Origin: an uncultured Candidatus Puniceispirillum sp.
GTDB lineage: Bacteria > Pseudomonadota > Alphaproteobacteria > Puniceispirillales > Puniceispirillaceae
DNA length: 64,000 bases
NCBI GenBank assembly: GCA_905182545.1
Contig: CAJJBY010000007.1
Span: 102,001-166,000, forward strand
Direction: 5' to 3'
Position numbers and translations under genes: made by a program. The notes beneath the pieces were generated by a model. It saw nothing but the letters and a program-made list of their open reading frames with translations, had not been told where the DNA came from and did not search any database. Position 1 is the stretch's first letter; each line of letters begins with the position of its first letter. Positions 4,532-15,409 of the stretch are shown here, one piece after another.

Positions 4532-5743
4532 CTATCGCCGGCCATCAGCAAGTAACAGCGATCGATCTTCGCGGCGCAATAACAGCATTGATAGGGCACC
4601 AAGAAAGGGGCCAGGTACTAGTATCACGAAAACCCAGCGCCAATTACCAAAGTACTCTGCTAAGACTGGTAACAACCAGATGACAAATATTGTTATTGCA
4701 AACCCAACACCCATTTGGAATGCCAATGCAGAACCAACCATTGATTGGTCAGAAAGCTCAGTGACCGCGGCTGAAAATTGGGCGCTATCCGCAACTGCAG
4801 TTAACCCCCAGATCAACGCGATTGTGATGAATAGCCACGGAGGGCCGTTAAAACAAAGCCCAATGAGGAGTGCACTTGTACCTGAAATAACCATGAGAAA
4901 GGTAGTTGCGTAACAACGACCTATGCGATCTGCTAACCATCCACCCAAAACACAACCTGGTGCGCCTGCAGCAATTACAAAAAATGTCAGTAACGCGGCG
5001 TTTTCCAGACCAAGTCCCGTGCTCTTTGCTGCAATAGCGTAGGCAAAAAACCAGCCCCACATCGCATAGAGCTCCCACATGTGACCAAAATAGCCGATAT
5101 TGGCTAGCATTACTGGACGGTTTCTAATAATGCGCGTCAATTGATTTAAATCTGCCTTAGTCTTGGAAAATTGATGGGGTCCGTTGTGTAACACAAATGC
5201 AAAAAGCACCGAGGCTATCAGGCAGGCCAGTGAGCTCATGACAATTACCAATTTCCAGTCAAATTGGACTCCAACAGCACGTATGAGGTGGGGCAAAGCT
5301 GATCCGAGCGTTAGGGCGCTCAACATTATTCCCATTGCAAAACCCCGTCCTTTTTTAAACCAGGTAGCGATGAATTTGATTACAGTGGGGTATATACCCG
5401 CTAAAGCCATACCCGTTATAAATCTGGAAAGAAGTGACAAGGTTACACCGGGTTCCAAAATTAAAAATGCATTTGCAATACCAGCAACACACGCAGATAT
5501 CGCCATAATGGTCGAGCTTTTATAAATATCTAACAGAGACAATAGGCTCACAATAATGGCACTAATGACAAAACCTAGCTGTACACTATTGGTAAACCAA
5601 GCTGCTTGGGACAGGCTCAGCGACATAAGCTCAGTCAACTCCGGTATGACGGCTGTTGCTGAGTACCAAGTAGTCAATGAAAGAACGAGTGCCACACCCG
5701 TAACTACAAGAACAAACCAACGGTTTGAAAATACGTTTGACAA
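4532..5743 (-). CDS. MFS transporter
   Basis: 403 residues with about twelve hydrophobic segments, the standard size for a major facilitator permease in the cytoplasmic membrane. The cytoplasmic loop after helix 2 lacks the classical full motif, but the equivalent loop in the second half (GGWLADRIGR) is clear. The substrate cannot be read from sequence. It sits between the TPR gene (convergent) and the maoC-molybdoenzyme-etfBA operon (same strand, 438 bases upstream), so it may import the substrate of that pathway or export a product. No good copy of the shared operator was found before it. Confidence 0.8.
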   Translation of the reverse strand: MSNVFSNRWFVLVVTGVALVLSLTTWYSATAVIPELTELMSLSLSQAAWFTNSVQLGFVISAIIVSLLSLLDIYKSSTIMAISACVAGIANAFLILEPGVTLSLLSRFITGMALAGIYPTVIKFIATWFKKGRGFAMGIMLSALTLGSALPHLIRAVGVQFDWKLVIVMSSLACLIASVLFAFVLHNGPHQFSKTKADLNQLTRIIRNRPVMLANIGYFGHMWELYAMWGWFFAYAIAAKSTGLGLENAALLTFFVIAAGAPGCVLGGWLADRIGRCYATTFLMVISGTSALLIGLCFNGPPWLFITIALIWGLTAVADSAQFSAAVTELSDQSMVGSALAFQMGVGFAITIFVIWLLPVLAEYFGNWRWVFVILVPGPFLGALSMLLLRREDRSLLLADGRR

Positions 5744-6181: not shown

Positions 6182-7174
6182 CTAGGCCTTCAGCTTCCTG
6201 ATCTCTTCGGCCAGTGCAGGCATAATTTCCTGAGAGTTGCCGACTATACCAAAACGAGATGATTTGAAAATTTCTGCATTTGGATCAGAATTGACCGAAA
6301 CAATGGTCTTTGAATTTCCACAGCCCGCCATATGATGACTAGCGCCAGAGATTCCGACCGCAATGTATAGTTCAGGTGCCACTGTGCGCCCGCTCAACCC
6401 AATCTGGTAAGAGCGTGGGCACCAGTCCAAATCACAAGCGGCGCGACTGGCACCAACAGCTCCATCGACCAGTTCTGCAATTTCATTGAGTGTTTTAAAT
6501 CCCTCTGGACCGCCTAAACCAAGCCCACCACCTATCACAATTTTTGCACTCTCCATCTTTACTCCGTCGGCTTTCTCCGTTTCACGGTTGACAACACGAG
6601 TGCGCATCGAATTCTCATCAAGAATTGAATCCACATGTTTAATCTCGCCAGCGCGCTCCATCATAGGTGGGAGGGCCTGTTGGCTTTTTGAACGAACAGT
6701 AGCTAACGCAGGTGTCTTTGTAAAAGTGACCACTTCGCGCGCAAGGCCACCAAAGCAGCTTCGGGTCATGTGTGGTCGTCCATTCATAATCTCAATCGAC
6801 TCACAACCGGTAGCTACATCAACATCAAGTCGGAAGGCTAGGCGGGGGGCTAGGTCAGTGCCCGATTCCGAATGTCCAATAAGGACAATAGCGGGCGCCA
6901 CCTCAGCAATCATTTTGGATAGATCTGGCAACCAGGCTTCAGCATGAAAGTTGGCAAATATTGAGTTGTCATTGATTAAAACTTGATCCGCACCGTGTGC
7001 AATCAGTGTTTCACCAGTGCTTTCCAAGCCAGTACCGAAAGCGACCGCAGTGACTGTCCCACCCATACTGTCAGTGAGACGCCTTGCCAACGCTAACATC
7101 TCTAAACCTAGATCGATTGGTTGGCTTTCCAAGACCTCTACAACTACGAGAACACCATTATTATTGTCAGTCAT
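6182..7174 (-). CDS. etfA: Electron transfer flavoprotein alpha subunit, accessory copy
   Basis: 330 residues. The C-terminal half has the FAD-binding signatures of ETF alpha: GGGLGLGGPEGF near 214, VGASRAACD, YQIGLSGRTVAPELYIAVGISGA and a final SRFGIVGN. With EtfB it carries electrons from flavin dehydrogenases to ETF-quinone oxidoreductase. It is the last gene of the maoC / molybdoenzyme / etfB / etfA operon, starting nine bases after etfB. A second, housekeeping etfBA pair lies at 13724-15409, so this pair is a diverged paralogue and probably serves a dedicated donor. Confidence 0.92.
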   Translation of the reverse strand: MTDNNNGVLVVVEVLESQPIDLGLEMLALARRLTDSMGGTVTAVAFGTGLESTGETLIAHGADQVLINDNSIFANFHAEAWLPDLSKMIAEVAPAIVLIGHSESGTDLAPRLAFRLDVDVATGCESIEIMNGRPHMTRSCFGGLAREVVTFTKTPALATVRSKSQQALPPMMERAGEIKHVDSILDENSMRTRVVNRETEKADGVKMESAKIVIGGGLGLGGPEGFKTLNEIAELVDGAVGASRAACDLDWCPRSYQIGLSGRTVAPELYIAVGISGASHHMAGCGNSKTIVSVNSDPNAEIFKSSRFGIVGNSQEIMPALAEEIRKLKA

Positions 7175-7183
7175 CTTTTGATC

Positions 7184-7996
7184 CTATATTAATTTTGCTT
7201 CACGCATGTGCTGAGCCAAAGTGGCAGCTATATCGGCTGGTGTATCCCCGCCAATGAATTCACACTCTATGTCGTTCACTGGTACATAGAGGTGCTCTAG
7301 CTTATAACGCATGGCACTAGAACCAACCTGCGTCTCATCAAGGCCAATATCATCAGGCATCCATTCCTTAACCGGTTTCTTCGCAGCACGCATGGTCTCC
7401 CGCATTGATGCATGGCGGACTTTACCCAACTCGTTGGAGATAGTTACCAACGCTGGTAAATCTGCTTCAACCGTTTCAATACCATCCTGAAGCACTCGTT
7501 GAACTGTGACGACACCATCATTAATCTGCACGTCACGCGCGAAAGTGATGGCTGGAATATCCAGAATTTCGGCTACTCCTAGTCCTACAACACCAGCGTC
7601 CCCGTCGGCAGCTTGACGCCCGGCCAAAATCAAGTCCACATCACCAATGGTGCGGATTGTCTCAGCCAGGTTACGGGCAGTGACGTACCCACCACCACCA
7701 TCAAACACCGAGTCACTGAGCAAAACGGCATTGTCAGCACCTAGGGCGAGCGCCGCTTTGATGGGCGCACGGGAGGCTTTTGGCGCGATAGTCACAATTG
7801 TTATCTCTACGTCTGCGGCCTCTCCTGCACTGTCACGTATCCTCAAAGCAGCTTCAACTGCTTGTTCATCAAATGGGCTCAGAACAGGTTGCAAACCAGA
7901 TACTGGAATCAAGGTTTTTGCTTGTTCGTCAATGCGAAACTGAGCAGACGGGATCTCAGGATTCTGGATCTGTTTAACACACACCACAATCTTCAT
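7184..7996 (-). CDS. etfB: Electron transfer flavoprotein beta subunit, accessory copy
   Basis: 270 residues, starting MKIVVCVKQI as in ETF beta. The nucleotide-binding stretch GRQAADGDAGVVG (about 130-142) and the beta-subunit signature around ALVTISNELGKVRHAS are present. The ATG at 7996 is only seven bases past the stop codon of the molybdoenzyme gene. Its ribosome binding site AAAGGG lies inside the end of that gene, so the two are probably translationally coupled. This tight spacing is the main reason for suspecting that the molybdoenzyme and this ETF work together. Confidence 0.92.
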   Translation of the reverse strand: MKIVVCVKQIQNPEIPSAQFRIDEQAKTLIPVSGLQPVLSPFDEQAVEAALRIRDSAGEAADVEITIVTIAPKASRAPIKAALALGADNAVLLSDSVFDGGGGYVTARNLAETIRTIGDVDLILAGRQAADGDAGVVGLGVAEILDIPAITFARDVQINDGVVTVQRVLQDGIETVEADLPALVTISNELGKVRHASMRETMRAAKKPVKEWMPDDIGLDETQVGSSAMRYKLEHLYVPVNDIECEFIGGDTPADIAATLAQHMREAKLI

Positions 7997-8003
7997 AGGA
8001 AAA

Positions 8004-9266
8004 TCACCCTTTCTCAACAGTAATTATTTCAGGCACGATACCGTCAAAGTGCTTGCGCTGAAAATTCCAGTCCCTAGTCGGCTGGACTCGACCTCTTTCG
8101 TCAGTTCCACGTGCCATTATTTTATACTGTCCTGGTTCAGCAACATCCCAAACATAGTGGAACCGCCGCCATAGCCAACGGTCGTTCGACTCCTCGATGG
8201 TTGCGTCGTTCCAGCTTTCACCCCCGTCAGTGCTGATCTCGACGCGAACCACGGCACCTTCACCACTCCATGTTCGACCAGTTACAGCGTGCGTGCCGCA
8301 TTTGATTGGACCGTCGTCGTCTCGCGGTGAAGTAATTAATGCTTTGACACCAAGCTTTTTCATAGCCTTCTTGTCGGGATCTTCTGGAGATTTGCCGCTC
8401 ACAAAATAATGGGTCTGATAATAGAAATCTGGCGTATGATCTAGCACCTCTATTTTATCAATCCATTTTACCCACCAATTTCCAGCCCAGCCCGGCACAA
8501 CTAATCGCAATGGGGCACCATGTACATGTGTCAAGTACTCACCGTTGTGAGCCCATGCTAGGATTGTATCTTCATGGAGAGCTTTTTCGATCGGCATTGC
8601 CTTTGCGTAATTGATGATACCGGGGTCAACCACATCAAAGTCGGTACGTCCGACTGAGAGGTATTGGGTCACTGGATCAGGTTTGCCCTCATCCCAGCCA
8701 TAAAGTGCGACAGACTCTGCGCCTTCTTGTATGCCAGCAATCTCAAGCACAGTCTTAAAGGGCACTCCAGTCCATTCACCACCACTGACCAGTCCCGTAG
8801 TTGGAATAGACTGAAGGATATTATTAATGTCTAGAGCCTCTTCGCCGTCGCCAGACTGGCGCCAACCGCCTTCTTCAGCTTGGACAGTACGCAAAGAGGG
8901 CTTCGGTACGTTTTTACCTTCCTCGATATAGTCCCAAAATTCACCATCATTTCCTGCACATTCGGTCACTGCACGTACTGTGCGCCCTGGAAACTTCCGA
9001 ATTTCCTCAAGAGTGTACTCAATTGGATTATCAACCATTCCACCGATTGAAAATGAGAAATCATCTGGATGAACCGGATCAGGCATATTGAGTTGAGCGA
9101 TCACATAATAGGCGTCAGTTGGTGTCAGCACTCCCTCTAAATCAAGTACTGGAGAACGTGCAAATATAGTTCGCCCTTCAGAGTCTTTACTTGGCATTAC
9201 GCGGGCCCGTTTACGATCGGGCCATCCCATTACCCACTCACCTTCAAGTTCCATCTCTTCTGACAT
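8004..9266 (-). CDS. Sulfite-oxidase-family molybdoenzyme without a signal peptide
   Basis: 420 residues. An oxidoreductase molybdopterin-binding domain spans about residues 55-290. It includes the molybdenum-ligating cysteine in TECAGN (Cys103) and the family motif HGAPLRLVVPGWAGNWWVKWI (249-269, given here as the match to HGxPLRLVVPGW). A Mo-co dimerisation domain follows at about 305-405. There are roughly 50 residues between CAGN and SGGEWTGVPF, longer than in many relatives. SoxC, SorA and most bacterial relatives carry an N-terminal export signal; this protein begins MSEEMELEGEW and shows none, so it should be cytoplasmic. The substrate is unknown. It is followed at once by etfB and etfA, which suggests ETF as electron acceptor. 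Confidence 0.85.
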   Translation of the reverse strand: MSEEMELEGEWVMGWPDRKRARVMPSKDSEGRTIFARSPVLDLEGVLTPTDAYYVIAQLNMPDPVHPDDFSFSIGGMVDNPIEYTLEEIRKFPGRTVRAVTECAGNDGEFWDYIEEGKNVPKPSLRTVQAEEGGWRQSGDGEEALDINNILQSIPTTGLVSGGEWTGVPFKTVLEIAGIQEGAESVALYGWDEGKPDPVTQYLSVGRTDFDVVDPGIINYAKAMPIEKALHEDTILAWAHNGEYLTHVHGAPLRLVVPGWAGNWWVKWIDKIEVLDHTPDFYYQTHYFVSGKSPEDPDKKAMKKLGVKALITSPRDDDGPIKCGTHAVTGRTWSGEGAVVRVEISTDGGESWNDATIEESNDRWLWRRFHYVWDVAEPGQYKIMARGTDERGRVQPTRDWNFQRKHFDGIVPEIITVEKG

Positions 9267-9325: not shown

Positions 9326-9781
9326 TTAGAGGCCTTCGAGCGCCATAGTGTACGTGGTAGCGGTGCCATCAACACAAAGGTCACCAGCACTGTCGGTAAT
9401 GGTGGTTTTCAGCTTGCAAATGGGTTTGTCGTCTCTTACCGATTCAATCTCGACTCGAGCAGTCAACTCTTCTCCTACTCCCACTGCTTTTAAAAATTTA
9501 AGTTCAGTTGATAAAAACACCGTGCCAGGCCCGGGCAAGTCTTCCGCAACACAGGCATTCAGGAGTCCTGTCGTCACACCACCTTGCACTATGAGCTTTC
9601 CAAACGGGGTTTTCTTCGCAAGCTCCTCATCATAATGAACCGGATTTTTATCACCAGTTATCTCAGTAAATGAATGTATGTCGCTCATCTTAGTAGCACG
9701 AGAGCGTTCACTGAATTGACCAACTTTTGGTTGGCCATTTAAAACTCCTACCCAACCATCTTTTTTTTCTGTATTGGACAT
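9326..9781 (-). CDS. MaoC-like hot-dog-fold (R)-enoyl-CoA hydratase family protein
   Basis: 151 residues, a single hot-dog domain. The hydratase signature is visible: TEITGDKNPVHYDEE with Asp44 and His49 as the probable catalytic pair, then FGKLIVQGGVTTGL. Relatives hydrate enoyl-CoA thioesters. It is the first gene of the operon, 59 bases before the molybdoenzyme gene, and is preceded by a promoter with the shared operator. Its presence implies that a CoA thioester takes part in the pathway, although some MaoC-like proteins act on other substrates. Confidence 0.85.
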   Translation of the reverse strand: MSNTEKKDGWVGVLNGQPKVGQFSERSRATKMSDIHSFTEITGDKNPVHYDEELAKKTPFGKLIVQGGVTTGLLNACVAEDLPGPGTVFLSTELKFLKAVGVGEELTARVEIESVRDDKPICKLKTTITDSAGDLCVDGTATTYTMALEGL

Positions 9782-10340: not shown

Positions 10341-10922
10341 TTGAGACAAACAGCACAAGCAAAGAAGATAACTAAGGTGGCAGCTTCGTTGTTCGCAGAA
10401 AAGGGTTACAATGGAGTTGGCGTCGCTGAAATTGGGGCAGCTTCAGGGTTTGGCCGTGGAACGCTCTACCATCACATAGAAAGCAAAGAAGACCTTCTTC
10501 ACGAAATTGCTTCAACGTACATTTCAGATTTGGTTCATTCTGGCCATAATATAGTGAAAGAGTATCCAGACCCTATTCAGCGCTTAAAAGCGCTAAGCCG
10601 ACACTTAATGACTGTGATCAGCAGCAGTTTAGCAGAAATAGTTGTCTGTTTTCGCGAAGTACAGTCTTTGACAGGTTCACGACATGATGACGTTATGTGT
10701 ATGCATGCAGAATACCAAAAAATCTGGTCTAAAACTATAGATGAAGGTGTTAAGCAAAATGTGTTCAGAGCTGTCGATAAAATCGCTGTAAAAGGCCTTT
10801 TGGGGATGTATTTCTACTCATGCCTTTGGCTAAAACCTGATGGTCTTCAATCTCCTGCAGATATCAGCGATGTTTTTAGTGATCTTGTCATCCGTTCTCT
10901 TTCTAAAAGACCGAACGACTAA
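10341..10922 (+). CDS. TetR-family transcriptional regulator
   Basis: 193 residues. The N-terminal helix-turn-helix is clear: AASLFAEKGYNGVGVAEIGAA (about 14-34), then GRGTLYHHIESKEDLL. The C-terminal ligand domain matches no specific subfamily. The frame begins at TTG 10341; the only nearby ATG (10331) is in another frame and stops after four codons. A GGATGAGAG sequence just upstream may bind the ribosome. An alpha/beta hydrolase follows 27 bases later, probably in the same operon. It is the only regulator in the accessory block, so it is the leading candidate to control the maoC and TPR promoters. Confidence 0.9.
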   Translation: MRQTAQAKKITKVAASLFAEKGYNGVGVAEIGAASGFGRGTLYHHIESKEDLLHEIASTYISDLVHSGHNIVKEYPDPIQRLKALSRHLMTVISSSLAEIVVCFREVQSLTGSRHDDVMCMHAEYQKIWSKTIDEGVKQNVFRAVDKIAVKGLLGMYFYSCLWLKPDGLQSPADISDVFSDLVIRSLSKRPND

Positions 10923-10949: not shown

Positions 10950-11825
10950 GTGCCAAAAGTTACTATTAAAAATCACGAGATATCATATAGTTTCAATGGC
11001 GTTTCTGGAGATACCGGTAGCCCAAAAGTAGTTCTAATTCATGGCGCAGGTGGTCAAGAGATTGATTGGCCGATGGCATGGCGTAGCCCCAAAGATCAAA
11101 CCAAATCAATGGGGTTGACGCCAAGCAACCACGGTGTGGCAAGGCTTTTCAATGCCGGTTTAGATGATTATTCGATTTATGCTGTTGATTTACCTGGGCA
11201 CGGAAAATCGGAAGGCAAGAGCAAATCAAGCATCGATGAGTATTCGAGCGACATCATAGATTTTATTGATGCGATGGACCTCGAAAACGTATGCTTAGTT
11301 GGTCATTCTATGGGTGCCGCAATCGCATTGAACGCTTCACTAAGTCACCATTGGCGTATTTGTGCGGTTGTAGCGATTGGTGGTGCGAGCAAGATGATTG
11401 TCAACGAAGCTATTCTTGAAGGTTTACAAAACACCTTTGAAACAACTGTCGACAGTATCGTGAAATATTCATGGCATAAAAAAACTGGGGCCATCGCAGA
11501 CAGTCAGCTAATGGCGGGATACTTTAGGGAAAAAGCCAAACAAAGAATACTGGATGCGGGCTCAAAAACTGTGCACGGGGATTTTCTTGCCTGTAGCAAG
11601 TTTGATTTAAGTGAACGTTTGGAAGAAATTGCAGATCCTGTGCTTATAATTGCCTCTGATTGTGATCGTATGGTGCCTCTAAATGCAAGCTGGGAAATGG
11701 CTCAAAAGTTACCAAATGCTAAATTTATCTTATTAGAGGGCTGCGGGCACTTTCAACACATCGAACAGACTAGCAAAGTTGCCAAAGAGTTCTTGAGTTT
11801 TCTTGGTGACGTTGGTCCGCGGTAG
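10950..11825 (+). CDS. Alpha/beta hydrolase
   Basis: 291 residues from a GTG start. The fold's features are complete: oxyanion HGAGG near 31, nucleophile in GHSMGA (Ser120), acid in IASDCDRMVP and the histidine in GCGHFQHIE near the end. No signal peptide. The large family includes esterases, C-C bond hydrolases and thioesterases, and the substrate cannot be read. Co-transcription with tetR places it in the inducible accessory pathway. Confidence 0.85.
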   Translation: MPKVTIKNHEISYSFNGVSGDTGSPKVVLIHGAGGQEIDWPMAWRSPKDQTKSMGLTPSNHGVARLFNAGLDDYSIYAVDLPGHGKSEGKSKSSIDEYSSDIIDFIDAMDLENVCLVGHSMGAAIALNASLSHHWRICAVVAIGGASKMIVNEAILEGLQNTFETTVDSIVKYSWHKKTGAIADSQLMAGYFREKAKQRILDAGSKTVHGDFLACSKFDLSERLEEIADPVLIIASDCDRMVPLNASWEMAQKLPNAKFILLEGCGHFQHIEQTSKVAKEFLSFLGDVGPR

Positions 11826-13662: not shown

Positions 13663-13723
13663 ACAGGTTTTTGATAAGGGTCACCCCTAGGTTGGCTTTG
13701 ACAATATTGCGGAGGATATGGAA

Positions 13724-14473
13724 ATGAAGGTTCTGGTTCCGGTAAAACGGGTTATTGACTATAACGTCAAAGTGCGCGTGAAGGCCGATCAATCAGGTGT
13801 TGAACTTGCTAATGTGAAAATGGCAATGAACCCATTTGATGAAATCGCTGTTGAGCAAGCCTTGCGGCTTCGCGAAGCTAGTACGGCTGAAGAAGTGATC
13901 GCCGTCTCAATTGGACCTGCGCAAAATCAGGAAACCATCCGCACCGCGCTTGCCATGGGCGCTGATCGCGGCATCCATATCGAAGCCCCACATGACATTG
14001 AGCCGCTGGCCGTTGCCAAGCTTTTGAAAGCTGTTGTGGCGCAGGAAAATCCAGGCATTGTCCTTGTTGGCAAACAGGCCATTGATGATGATTGCAACCA
14101 AACTGGCCAGATGCTTGCTGCCTTGCTTGGCTGGGCACAAGGCACATTTGCATCAGCGCTGGAAATCGCTGGCGATAAAGCCAAAGTCATCCGCGAAGTT
14201 GATGGCGGATTGGAACATATCGAAATCAATATGCCAGCCATTGTCACGGTTGATTTGCGGCTCAATGAGCCTCGCTATGCGTCACTGCCAAATATAATGA
14301 AGGCCAAGAAAAAGCCGCTTGATAGCCTGACCGCTGGTGATCTTGGTGTTGATATTGCGCCGCGCCTAACGATCGTCAAGGTTGAAGAGCCAACCGCCCG
14401 CGCCGCCGGTATCAAAGTCGGCGATGTGCAGGAATTGGTAAGCAAATTAAAAAACGAAGCAAAGGTGATCTAA
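13724..14473 (+). CDS. etfB: Electron transfer flavoprotein beta subunit, housekeeping copy
   Basis: 249 residues from [19 protein letters not shown], the typical proteobacterial ETF beta start. A GGAGG at 13711-13715 lies eight bases before the ATG at 13724 and only two before the ATG at 13718, so the second ATG is chosen. It has [17 protein letters not shown] (nucleotide loop) and [29 protein letters not shown] (signature, abbreviated as the [18 protein letters not shown] stretch). It forms the FAD- and AMP-binding heterodimer with EtfA three bases downstream. Confidence 0.95.
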
Positions 14474-14476
14474 GCC

Positions 14477-15409
14477 ATGAGCATTTTAATCCTATGTGAC
14501 CATGAAAATGGCCAGCTAAGTCCGGTAACATTAAACGCTATCAGCGCCGCCAGTCAGATTGGTGGCGAGATGCATCTTCTTGTTGCAGGTGATCAAACTG
14601 GCAATGTTGCCAAGGCCGCTGCCTCGATTGCCAGTATCGCCAAAGTTCTGGTGGCAGATGATAAATCCCTTGAAAACGGACTTGCCGAAAATCTTGCGCC
14701 TTTGATGCAAAGCCTATCAGGCGGCTATTCGCATATGATGGCCGCGGCAACAACAACCGGCAAAAATGTTATGCCGCGTCTTGCTGCTCTGCTTGATGTG
14801 ATGCAGATTTCCGACATTATCAAAATCGATGACGCCAACACATTCCAGCGTCCAATCTATGCTGGCAATGCCCTGTCAACCGTATCATCAAACGAGGCCA
14901 TCAAGGTGATTACCGTTCGCGGTACGGCGTTTGAAGCGGCGGCTGCCGAAGGCGGCAATGCCGCCATCGAGACGGTTGCCGGTGCCAGTGATGCCGGCTT
15001 GTCAGCCTATGTCAAATCAGAGCTATCCAGTTCGGAACGCCCTGAATTGACCTCGGCTTCGATTGTGATTTCAGGTGGACGCGGCATGCAGGATGGCGCC
15101 AATTTTGCCATGCTTGAAAAAATCGCCGACAAGCTTGGTGCGGCCGTTGGCGCATCACGCGCCGCGGTAGATGCCGGTTTTGTTCCCAATGATTATCAGG
15201 TTGGTCAGACCGGCAAGGTTGTTGCGCCCGATCTGTATGTTGCGGTTGGCATTTCAGGTGCCATTCAGCATCTTGCCGGCATGAAAGACAGCAAGGTGAT
15301 TGTCGCCATCAACAAAGATGATGAAGCGCCGATTTTCCAAGTTGCCGATTACGGGTTGGTGGCCGATCTTTTTGATGCCGTTCCTGCGCTTGAAAAAGAG
15401 CTTGGCTAA
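14477..15409 (+). CDS. etfA: Electron transfer flavoprotein alpha subunit, housekeeping copy
   Basis: 310 residues. FAD-domain motifs are all present: [12 protein letters not shown] near 198, [32 protein letters not shown] and [11 protein letters not shown]. It is the main electron carrier from acyl-CoA and related dehydrogenases to the quinone pool. A terminator follows directly, so the adenosyltransferase-etfB-etfA unit ends here. Compared with the accessory EtfA at 6182-7174 the two align along their length but differ at many positions, including the N-terminal domain. Confidence 0.95.

Follow-up and report, generated by a model that had tools for sequence, protein, structure and literature searches.

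A cytoplasmic enzyme of the sulfite oxidase (SUOX) fold, encoded in a window of 64,000 nucleotides from a SAR116-type genome (G000, contig C7; 2.0 Mb, 98% complete), is very probably coupled to an electron transfer flavoprotein (ETF) of its own. On the minus strand, the genes for a MaoC-type hydratase, this mononuclear molybdenum oxidoreductase and the ETF subunits EtfB and EtfA follow one another in this order and in the same direction, with gaps of 59, 7 and 9 bases (Table 1). The 7-base gap (7997-8003) leads from the SUOX stop codon (8004-8006) to the ATG of etfB, and the 9-base gap (7175-7183) separates etfB from etfA. Both spacings agree with a preliminary description of this DNA, whose coordinates covered SUOX and etfB and left etfA just outside. 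That description had proposed that a SUOX-fold enzyme without an export signal is linked to an ETF of its own, in an operon that lacks a flavin dehydrogenase. Comparative genomics, which it had suggested as a check, supports the tie, and ten queries for acyl-coenzyme A (CoA) dehydrogenases gave no match in the window. The gene pairing points to an undescribed way for SUOX-fold enzymes to feed respiration.

The novelty asserted in the preliminary description agrees with a search of open-access literature, in which no pairing of an ETF with a molybdenum enzyme, whether of the SUOX fold or another, was found; subscription papers lay mostly outside the search. Neither is a SUOX enzyme with an ETF described in the available parts of work on Sulfobacillus (PMC4378227), Nitrospina (PMC3578206), Advenella (PMC5373536), SorT/SorU (PMC4760952), electron bifurcation (PMC6037941), the Bohai Sea (PMC12345210) and the history of sulfite oxidase (PMC10574614). 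According to the accessible text of the SorT/SorU study, the electron acceptor of many SUOX-type enzymes is not known (PMC4760952). The paired ETF is a concrete, testable candidate acceptor for the present SUOX clade, and would let electrons from molybdenum chemistry in the cytosol reach the quinone pool with no need for the periplasm or a cytochrome.

Conservation of the pairing across genomes

SUOX genes of this kind were found in 51 genomes of alpha-, beta- and gammaproteobacteria, composed of the host genome, 14 relatives from a species-level genome collection and 7, 5, 23 and 1 new genomes from four wider samples. The ETF type adjoins SUOX in 47 of them, three have SUOX at a contig edge and one (G1175) is without it. 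The three at contig ends (G1126, G1128 and G1178) are not assessable, although in G1178 another contig begins with an EtfB of this type, and G1180 was counted from a partial etfB at a contig end that was seen by tblastn only. The pairing is kept in 47 of the 48 assessable genomes, and a chance neighbourhood was rejected on this count. In the species-level collection, etfB and etfA lie directly downstream in 14 of 14 relatives, one locus (L001) ending inside etfA; the titles of eight of these loci (L001-L005 and L007-L009) name SAR116 or Puniceispirillum. In the wider samples, in which the groups of genomes without a name of their own were inferred from named members, SUOX was present in 8 of 300 genomes in the order of a genome titled Betaproteobacteria (L012, itself among the eight; 7 new), 6 of 43 in the order of one titled Alphaproteobacteria (L011; 5 new), 25 of 74 in the family of G707 (23 new) and, in a sample of the class around G1113, 2 of 337 (one new). 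Samples of the phylum (1/398, the host genome), of the host's order (9/136, eight of them already among the 14 relatives) and of the order of L014 (1/244, L014's own) gave few positives as well; the ETF-paired SUOX clade is rare.

An EtfB profile was run over 80 genomes, counting matches above 300 bits, or shorter ones beside SUOX if cut by a contig end. Within Puniceispirillaceae, the EtfB type was present in 9/9 SUOX-positive and 0/9 SUOX-negative genomes (Fisher p 4e-5, uncorrected for kinship), and within a betaproteobacterial family in 21/25 against 0/37 (Fisher p 7e-13, likewise uncorrected). The four misses in the latter are G1126, G1128 and G1180, all at contig ends, and G1175. Seven of the 37 SUOX-negative genomes have an ETF paralogue that matches less well (228-235 bits, and 200 for an additional copy) and was not counted; in three loci (L141-L143) it is 34-35% identical and lies near genes that appear by eye to encode acyl-CoA dehydrogenase or a flavin adenine dinucleotide (FAD) reductase. 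Over 153 pairs from 18 loci, SUOX identities correlate with EtfB identities (r 0.96) and EtfA identities (r 0.94), a comparison that has no control gene and is not counted as evidence.

The pairing also persists in altered arrangements. In one genome (G1216, locus L111), SUOX and etfBA are divergent yet together, with a TetR-like gene between them, and stand amid six monooxygenase-type genes. Three betaproteobacterial genomes (L074, L075 and L076) have two clade SUOX genes in tandem before etfBA, possibly encoding a heterodimer. In L125 and L109 (G1175, the genome without this ETF type), a carboxylase gene directly follows SUOX.

Thirteen other SUOX-family loci served as controls, namely 12 plasmid loci and the SoxC-like gene of the host genome (L147). 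The plasmid loci come from a protein search that gave 310 records with a match, all below 60% identity. None of the 13 has an ETF match (E 1e-5) within about 4 kb on each side, or more in L147. As judged by eye, the SoxC-like protein starts with a leader of twin-arginine type, and a cytochrome-like gene adjoins its own; this is the ordinary arrangement, in contrast to the ETF-paired SUOX. Its region (G000 C4:112000-131000) reads by eye as a sox-type cluster together with a three-gene molybdenum hydroxylase set of the Cox/xanthine-dehydrogenase type. In control L086, an annotated acyl-CoA dehydrogenase gene adjoins the sulfite oxidase gene, without an ETF. Other leaderless SUOX-family proteins, such as those of Deinococcus plasmids, share the fold and have no evident leader and no recognised acceptor adjoining; they are 33-35% identical to the window enzyme, but keep the arginine pocket and have no ETF nearby. 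In L085 and L148, a leaderless SUOX-family gene of such plasmids lies inside a 4-hydroxyphenylacetate (hpa) cluster.

Features of the SUOX-fold enzyme

The SUOX protein begins with MSEEMELEGEWVMGWPDRKRAR and has no leader. By eye, no twin-arginine motif followed by a hydrophobic stretch was present in frame upstream of the gene in 37 rows of relatives, which include 8 second copies of listed genes and were judged without a signal-peptide program; the lack of an export signal had been correctly noted before. The best solved relatives are SorA and the sulfite dehydrogenase entry 2xts, which we take to be SoxC, and weaker matches include MsrP and nitrate reductase [NADPH], reductases of the same fold. 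Scores against the NCBIfam models of SoxC (200 bits, cut-off 420), SorA (177, cut-off 600) and SorT (142, cut-off 570) lie far under the curated cut-offs and the pocket residues are not kept, and membership in these three families was rejected. An AlphaFold model made with ten sequences (mean predicted local distance difference test score 56) was too poor for comparison of the active site or fold and was not used.

The enzymes SorA/SorAB, SorT/SorU and SoxC/SoxCD share with the window enzyme the fold made up of Oxidored_molyb and Mo-co_dimer, the molybdenum-ligating cysteine and the catalytic tyrosine. In a profile alignment, SorA Cys104 and Tyr236 correspond to Cys103 and Tyr287 of the SUOX protein, and SorA Arg55, His57 and Arg109, which bind sulfite, correspond to I56, Q58 and G108. 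Cys103 is found in 38 of 38 rows, which represent 30 distinct genes (the 8 second copies L018-L025 repeat L001-L005 and L007-L009), and in 24 of 24 further genes. Across the resulting 54 clade genes, there is no variation at C103, Y287, D107, H247 and H249; all 54 have I, V or N at position 56 and none has Arg, position 58 is Gln in 53, with His only in G1175, and position 108 is G, A, E or T. The molybdenum motifs, previously called complete, are so in respect of Cys103 and Tyr287, and the sulfite-pocket residues are absent. SoxC-type proteins are also without the third pocket residue (Arg109). Arg160 of human sulfite oxidase is presumably the equivalent of SorA Arg55. In the available part of an account of sulfite oxidase history, this human residue is termed critical (PMC10574614).

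The clade has about 35 extra residues after the molybdenum-cysteine loop, which are absent from SorA and all 13 controls; the insert is placed at residues 111-161. These controls branch apart from the clade with support 1.000, and the first pocket position is Arg in 12 of them. Because the controls branch apart, lack the insert and mostly keep the arginine, the ETF-paired SUOX-fold enzymes form, as judged by sequence, a distinct clade. In comparison with SorAB, SorT/SorU and SoxCD, the window enzyme is without the export signal and the pocket arginines, carries the insert, and has an ETF in place of a cytochrome partner, none having been seen by eye or with labelled queries. SoeABC, a member of the dimethyl sulfoxide reductase family with its own iron-sulfur and membrane subunits, would send sulfite electrons to quinone; it resembles the present system in this destination, but its fold is unrelated to SUOX. 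SoeABC is given as membrane-bound in the available part of the Bohai Sea study (PMC12345210). The fold of the window enzyme is that of sulfite oxidase, and its residues make sulfite oxidation less likely; with the SorA-type pocket arginines missing, the label "sulfite-oxidase-type" should not be taken to mean that sulfite is oxidized.

The ETF and the proposed route to quinone

ETF-domain membership is evident from PF01012 in both subunits and PF00766 in EtfA. Soluble ETFs pass electrons to ETF:ubiquinone oxidoreductase (ETF-QO) and thence to quinone, which is the route of ETF-coupled dehydrogenases. An ETF-QO match was obtained under 8 of 9 genome handles, two of which (G486 and G539) denote one genome; the host genome has one match, and none was found in G535, a metagenome-assembled genome. 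In the 1.2-Mb genome of L012 (G536), the sole ETF-QO match adjoins the SUOX-etfBA cluster on the other strand. Among solved structures, the SUOX-linked EtfB and EtfA are nearest to CarD/CarE and other bifurcating-type ETFs. CarD/CarE-type ETFs use reduced nicotinamide adenine dinucleotide (NADH) and are bifurcating. Five aligned solved EtfB chains have the motif DGDTxQVG in common, whose T and Q are kept in none of 35 clade rows (second copies included); the middle Gly position is variable (G17, W11, F3, K3, R1; G in the window). The clade EtfB differs in these residues from the bifurcating ETFs of its nearest solved relatives (CarDE and the EtfAB of Acidaminococcus and Clostridium), and membership in the bifurcating type was rejected on this ground. 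Because the T and Q are not kept, the SUOX-linked ETF is predicted to be a one-FAD carrier.

From these features, we infer the electron path, its direction and the class of substrate as follows. The cytoplasmic SUOX-fold enzyme would oxidize its substrate at a molybdenum centre held by Cys103, and the centre would take two electrons from the substrate and deliver them to the FAD of its own EtfAB, from which they would pass to ETF-QO and the quinone pool. With neither a heme domain nor a cytochrome partner evident, EtfAB is the proposed acceptor; by eye and with labelled queries, no cytochrome or other acceptor gene was recognised beside SUOX, no dedicated search having been made. The carrier and route presumed here are those of the acyl-CoA and dimethylglycine dehydrogenase systems, which have CoA-pathway neighbours as well; in those systems the donor is a flavin dehydrogenase, whereas here the presumed donor is a molybdenum enzyme. 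Since the arginines are lost, the molybdenum-cysteine loop carries the insert and the neighbours belong to CoA-thioester and organosulfur metabolism, plain sulfite, bound in the customary pocket of arginines, is an unlikely substrate, which would more probably be a larger organosulfur or CoA-activated intermediate. Taken jointly, ETF coupling and a non-sulfite substrate are about as probable as their opposite. An organosulfur substrate would mean an added step in the sulfur and carbon turnover of SAR116, which is marine, and of some betaproteobacteria.

Gene neighbourhoods and the substrate

The surroundings of SUOX differ among clades. SAR116 and gamma-titled genomes have MaoC, SUOX and etfBA, with TetR, MFS or TPR genes in part of the loci. 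The clusters of Betaproteobacteria contain a biotin carrier, a biotin carboxylase, beta subunits of acyl-CoA carboxylase (one or two), often a FadJ-like protein, and a two-part nucleoside-diphosphate-forming CoA ligase. L077, L078 and L081 have an amino-acid-type ATP-binding cassette transporter and a crotonase, and L077 and L078 also a molybdenum, iron-sulfur and membrane gene set of doubtful kind (Phs/Psr/Soe-like; PhsA best, with 190 bits against a cut-off of 694), which we take to resemble Soe. TauD-like and sulfatase-like genes, below cut-off, lie on the other strand or some kilobases off in L079 and L080. L111 encodes three NtaA/DmoA monooxygenases above cut-off, SsuD-like and SfnB-like proteins below it, and a CoA-transferase-like protein. 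In three clades SUOX has a hydratase or crotonase gene in its vicinity, and in two, doubtfully three, it has sulfur-type genes. Judged from such annotations, the neighbourhoods point to organosulfur and CoA-thioester metabolism as the substrate field.

Several of these genes would also suit a cytoplasmic sulfite dehydrogenase with the ETF as acceptor, in which cytosolic sulfite from desulfonating or desulfinating enzymes is oxidized to sulfate and the electrons pass through ETF and ETF-QO to quinone. The SUOX fold with its molybdenum cysteine and catalytic tyrosine is consistent with this alternative, the NtaA/DmoA, SsuD-like and SfnB-like proteins of L111 and the TauD-like and sulfatase-like proteins of L079 and L080, from two unrelated neighbourhoods, are potential sulfite releasers, and the gene set of L077 and L078 may be a doubtful third context. 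The pocket argues against it, since every clade gene lacks the arginine of SorA Arg55 (the presumed counterpart of the critical human residue), all but one have Gln for His57 and Arg109 is replaced throughout; moreover, the betaproteobacterial clusters have CoA genes and no evident sulfite source. We consider this alternative possible but doubtful.

Within the preferred reading of an ETF-coupled enzyme, a further step is tentative: the SUOX clade may have left sulfite chemistry and replaced the flavin acyl-CoA dehydrogenase as ETF donor, oxidizing a CoA-activated, perhaps sulfur-bearing, acyl intermediate that would sit between the CoA ligase and a hydratase or carboxylase. If so, the SUOX fold would gain a reaction class not seen in it before and, to our knowledge, this would be the first molybdenum enzyme feeding ETF and ETF-QO.

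Other possible electron donors of the ETF

An unlikely alternative is that SUOX and etfBA share a catabolic operon without sharing electrons, the ETF serving an acyl-CoA-type dehydrogenase that is mostly encoded elsewhere and the molybdoenzyme using another acceptor. Several findings favour it and weigh against a dedicated coupling. Relatives that always lack etfBA, which the preliminary description had named as a counter-sign, were not what the genomes revealed. As regards its second counter-sign, an acyl-CoA or dimethylglycine-type dehydrogenase that uses this ETF, there are five Acyl-CoA_dh_M matches at other places in the host genome, which nevertheless carries a second ETF as well. Acyl-CoA dehydrogenase matches occur in 14 of 14 genomes examined, and in any genome a distant flavin dehydrogenase may be the donor. 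G535 and G536 have the SUOX-linked ETF as the only one found, together with 20 and 3 acyl-CoA dehydrogenase matches, respectively; with a sole ETF and such matches, the SUOX-linked ETF may serve acyl-CoA dehydrogenases there too and so may not be exclusive to SUOX. With ten queries, acyl-CoA-dehydrogenase-like matches were obtained in two of 44 cluster loci, L117 (G1156), where the gene (7673-8782) immediately precedes those for the biotin carrier and SUOX, and L111, whose gene is SfnB/DszC-like; in G1216, the contig with SUOX contains another match at a distance of about 10 kb. The CoA-pathway neighbours fit this alternative, as does the distant ETF paralogue mentioned above, which by eye lies near an apparent acyl-CoA dehydrogenase in two of three loci. 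Also unfavourable to dedicated coupling, SUOX of G1175 stands in a similar cluster although its 2.6-Mb assembly contains no EtfB of this type, the context varies by clade so that no one substrate would suit every cluster, and the names of many neighbours come from scores under curated cut-offs.

Against separate electron paths, 42 of the 44 cluster loci are without an acyl-CoA-dehydrogenase-like match, SUOX and etfBA stay joined while their other neighbours change greatly, and 7 of 9 genomes, entered under 8 of 10 handles, have a second etfA; the acceptor that such a molybdoenzyme would use was not recognised beside SUOX within the limits of the inspection given above.

In the reverse direction, NADH or some other donor would charge EtfAB, and the molybdenum centre would receive the electrons and reduce an S-oxide or N-oxide. 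The nearest solved ETFs and the same-fold reductases among the weaker SUOX matches would suit this alternative, but it is very improbable, since the T and Q of DGDTxQVG are lost, the middle Gly of the motif is variable and one genome has ETF-QO adjoining the operon.

Other genes of the window and possible transfer of the module

The operon and its surroundings are listed in Table 1. The MaoC-type protein has the sequence GDxNPxH, which we take to be the hydratase motif; its gene is not present upstream of SUOX in L011, L012 and L013. The divergent TetR-family protein probably regulates the operon, and part of the five related loci in which it was not counted are short or masked. The MFS protein is a possible transporter of the module, and a tie of the alpha/beta-hydrolase to the operon is uncertain.

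Table 1. Genes of the SUOX-etfBA operon and its surroundings (window coordinates; occurrence among 14 related loci)
Feature	Position	Strand	Basis or occurrence
SUOX-fold mononuclear molybdenum oxidoreductase, 420 aa	8004..9266	-	Oxidored_molyb E 3.7e-40, Mo-co_dimer E 1.7e-13 (Pfam)
etfB, beta subunit, paired with the molybdoenzyme	7184..7996 (from ATG)	-	PF01012
etfA, alpha subunit	6182..7174	-	PF01012 and FAD-binding domain PF00766 E 5.9e-30
MaoC-type (R)-enoyl-CoA hydratase-like, 151 aa, first gene of the operon	9326..9781	-	upstream of SUOX in 11/14
TetR-family regulator, divergent from the operon	10341..10922	+	adjoins the operon in 9/14
MFS transporter, downstream of etfA, same strand	4532..5743	-	6/14
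TPR-repeat protein, 590 aa	2636..4408	+	8/14
alpha/beta-hydrolase beside the operon	10950..11825	+	6/14, all titled SAR116
Second, canonical etfBA pair	13718..15409	+	about 6 kb from the SUOX-linked etfBA

Three loci titled Oceanospirillaceae or Gammaproteobacteria (L006, L010 and L014) contain TetR, MaoC, SUOX, etfBA and MFS genes. Because their SUOX is 90-92% identical to that of the window, the sequences suggest that the whole module was transferred between SAR116 and gamma-titled genomes. The set seems to work as a transferable module, as it is common to SAR116 and these three. Apparent nusA and infB genes are present on the contig of L014 as well.

In the window, EtfB of the canonical pair is 29% identical to the SUOX-linked EtfB, and the TPR-repeat protein has a Cys-rich C-terminus.

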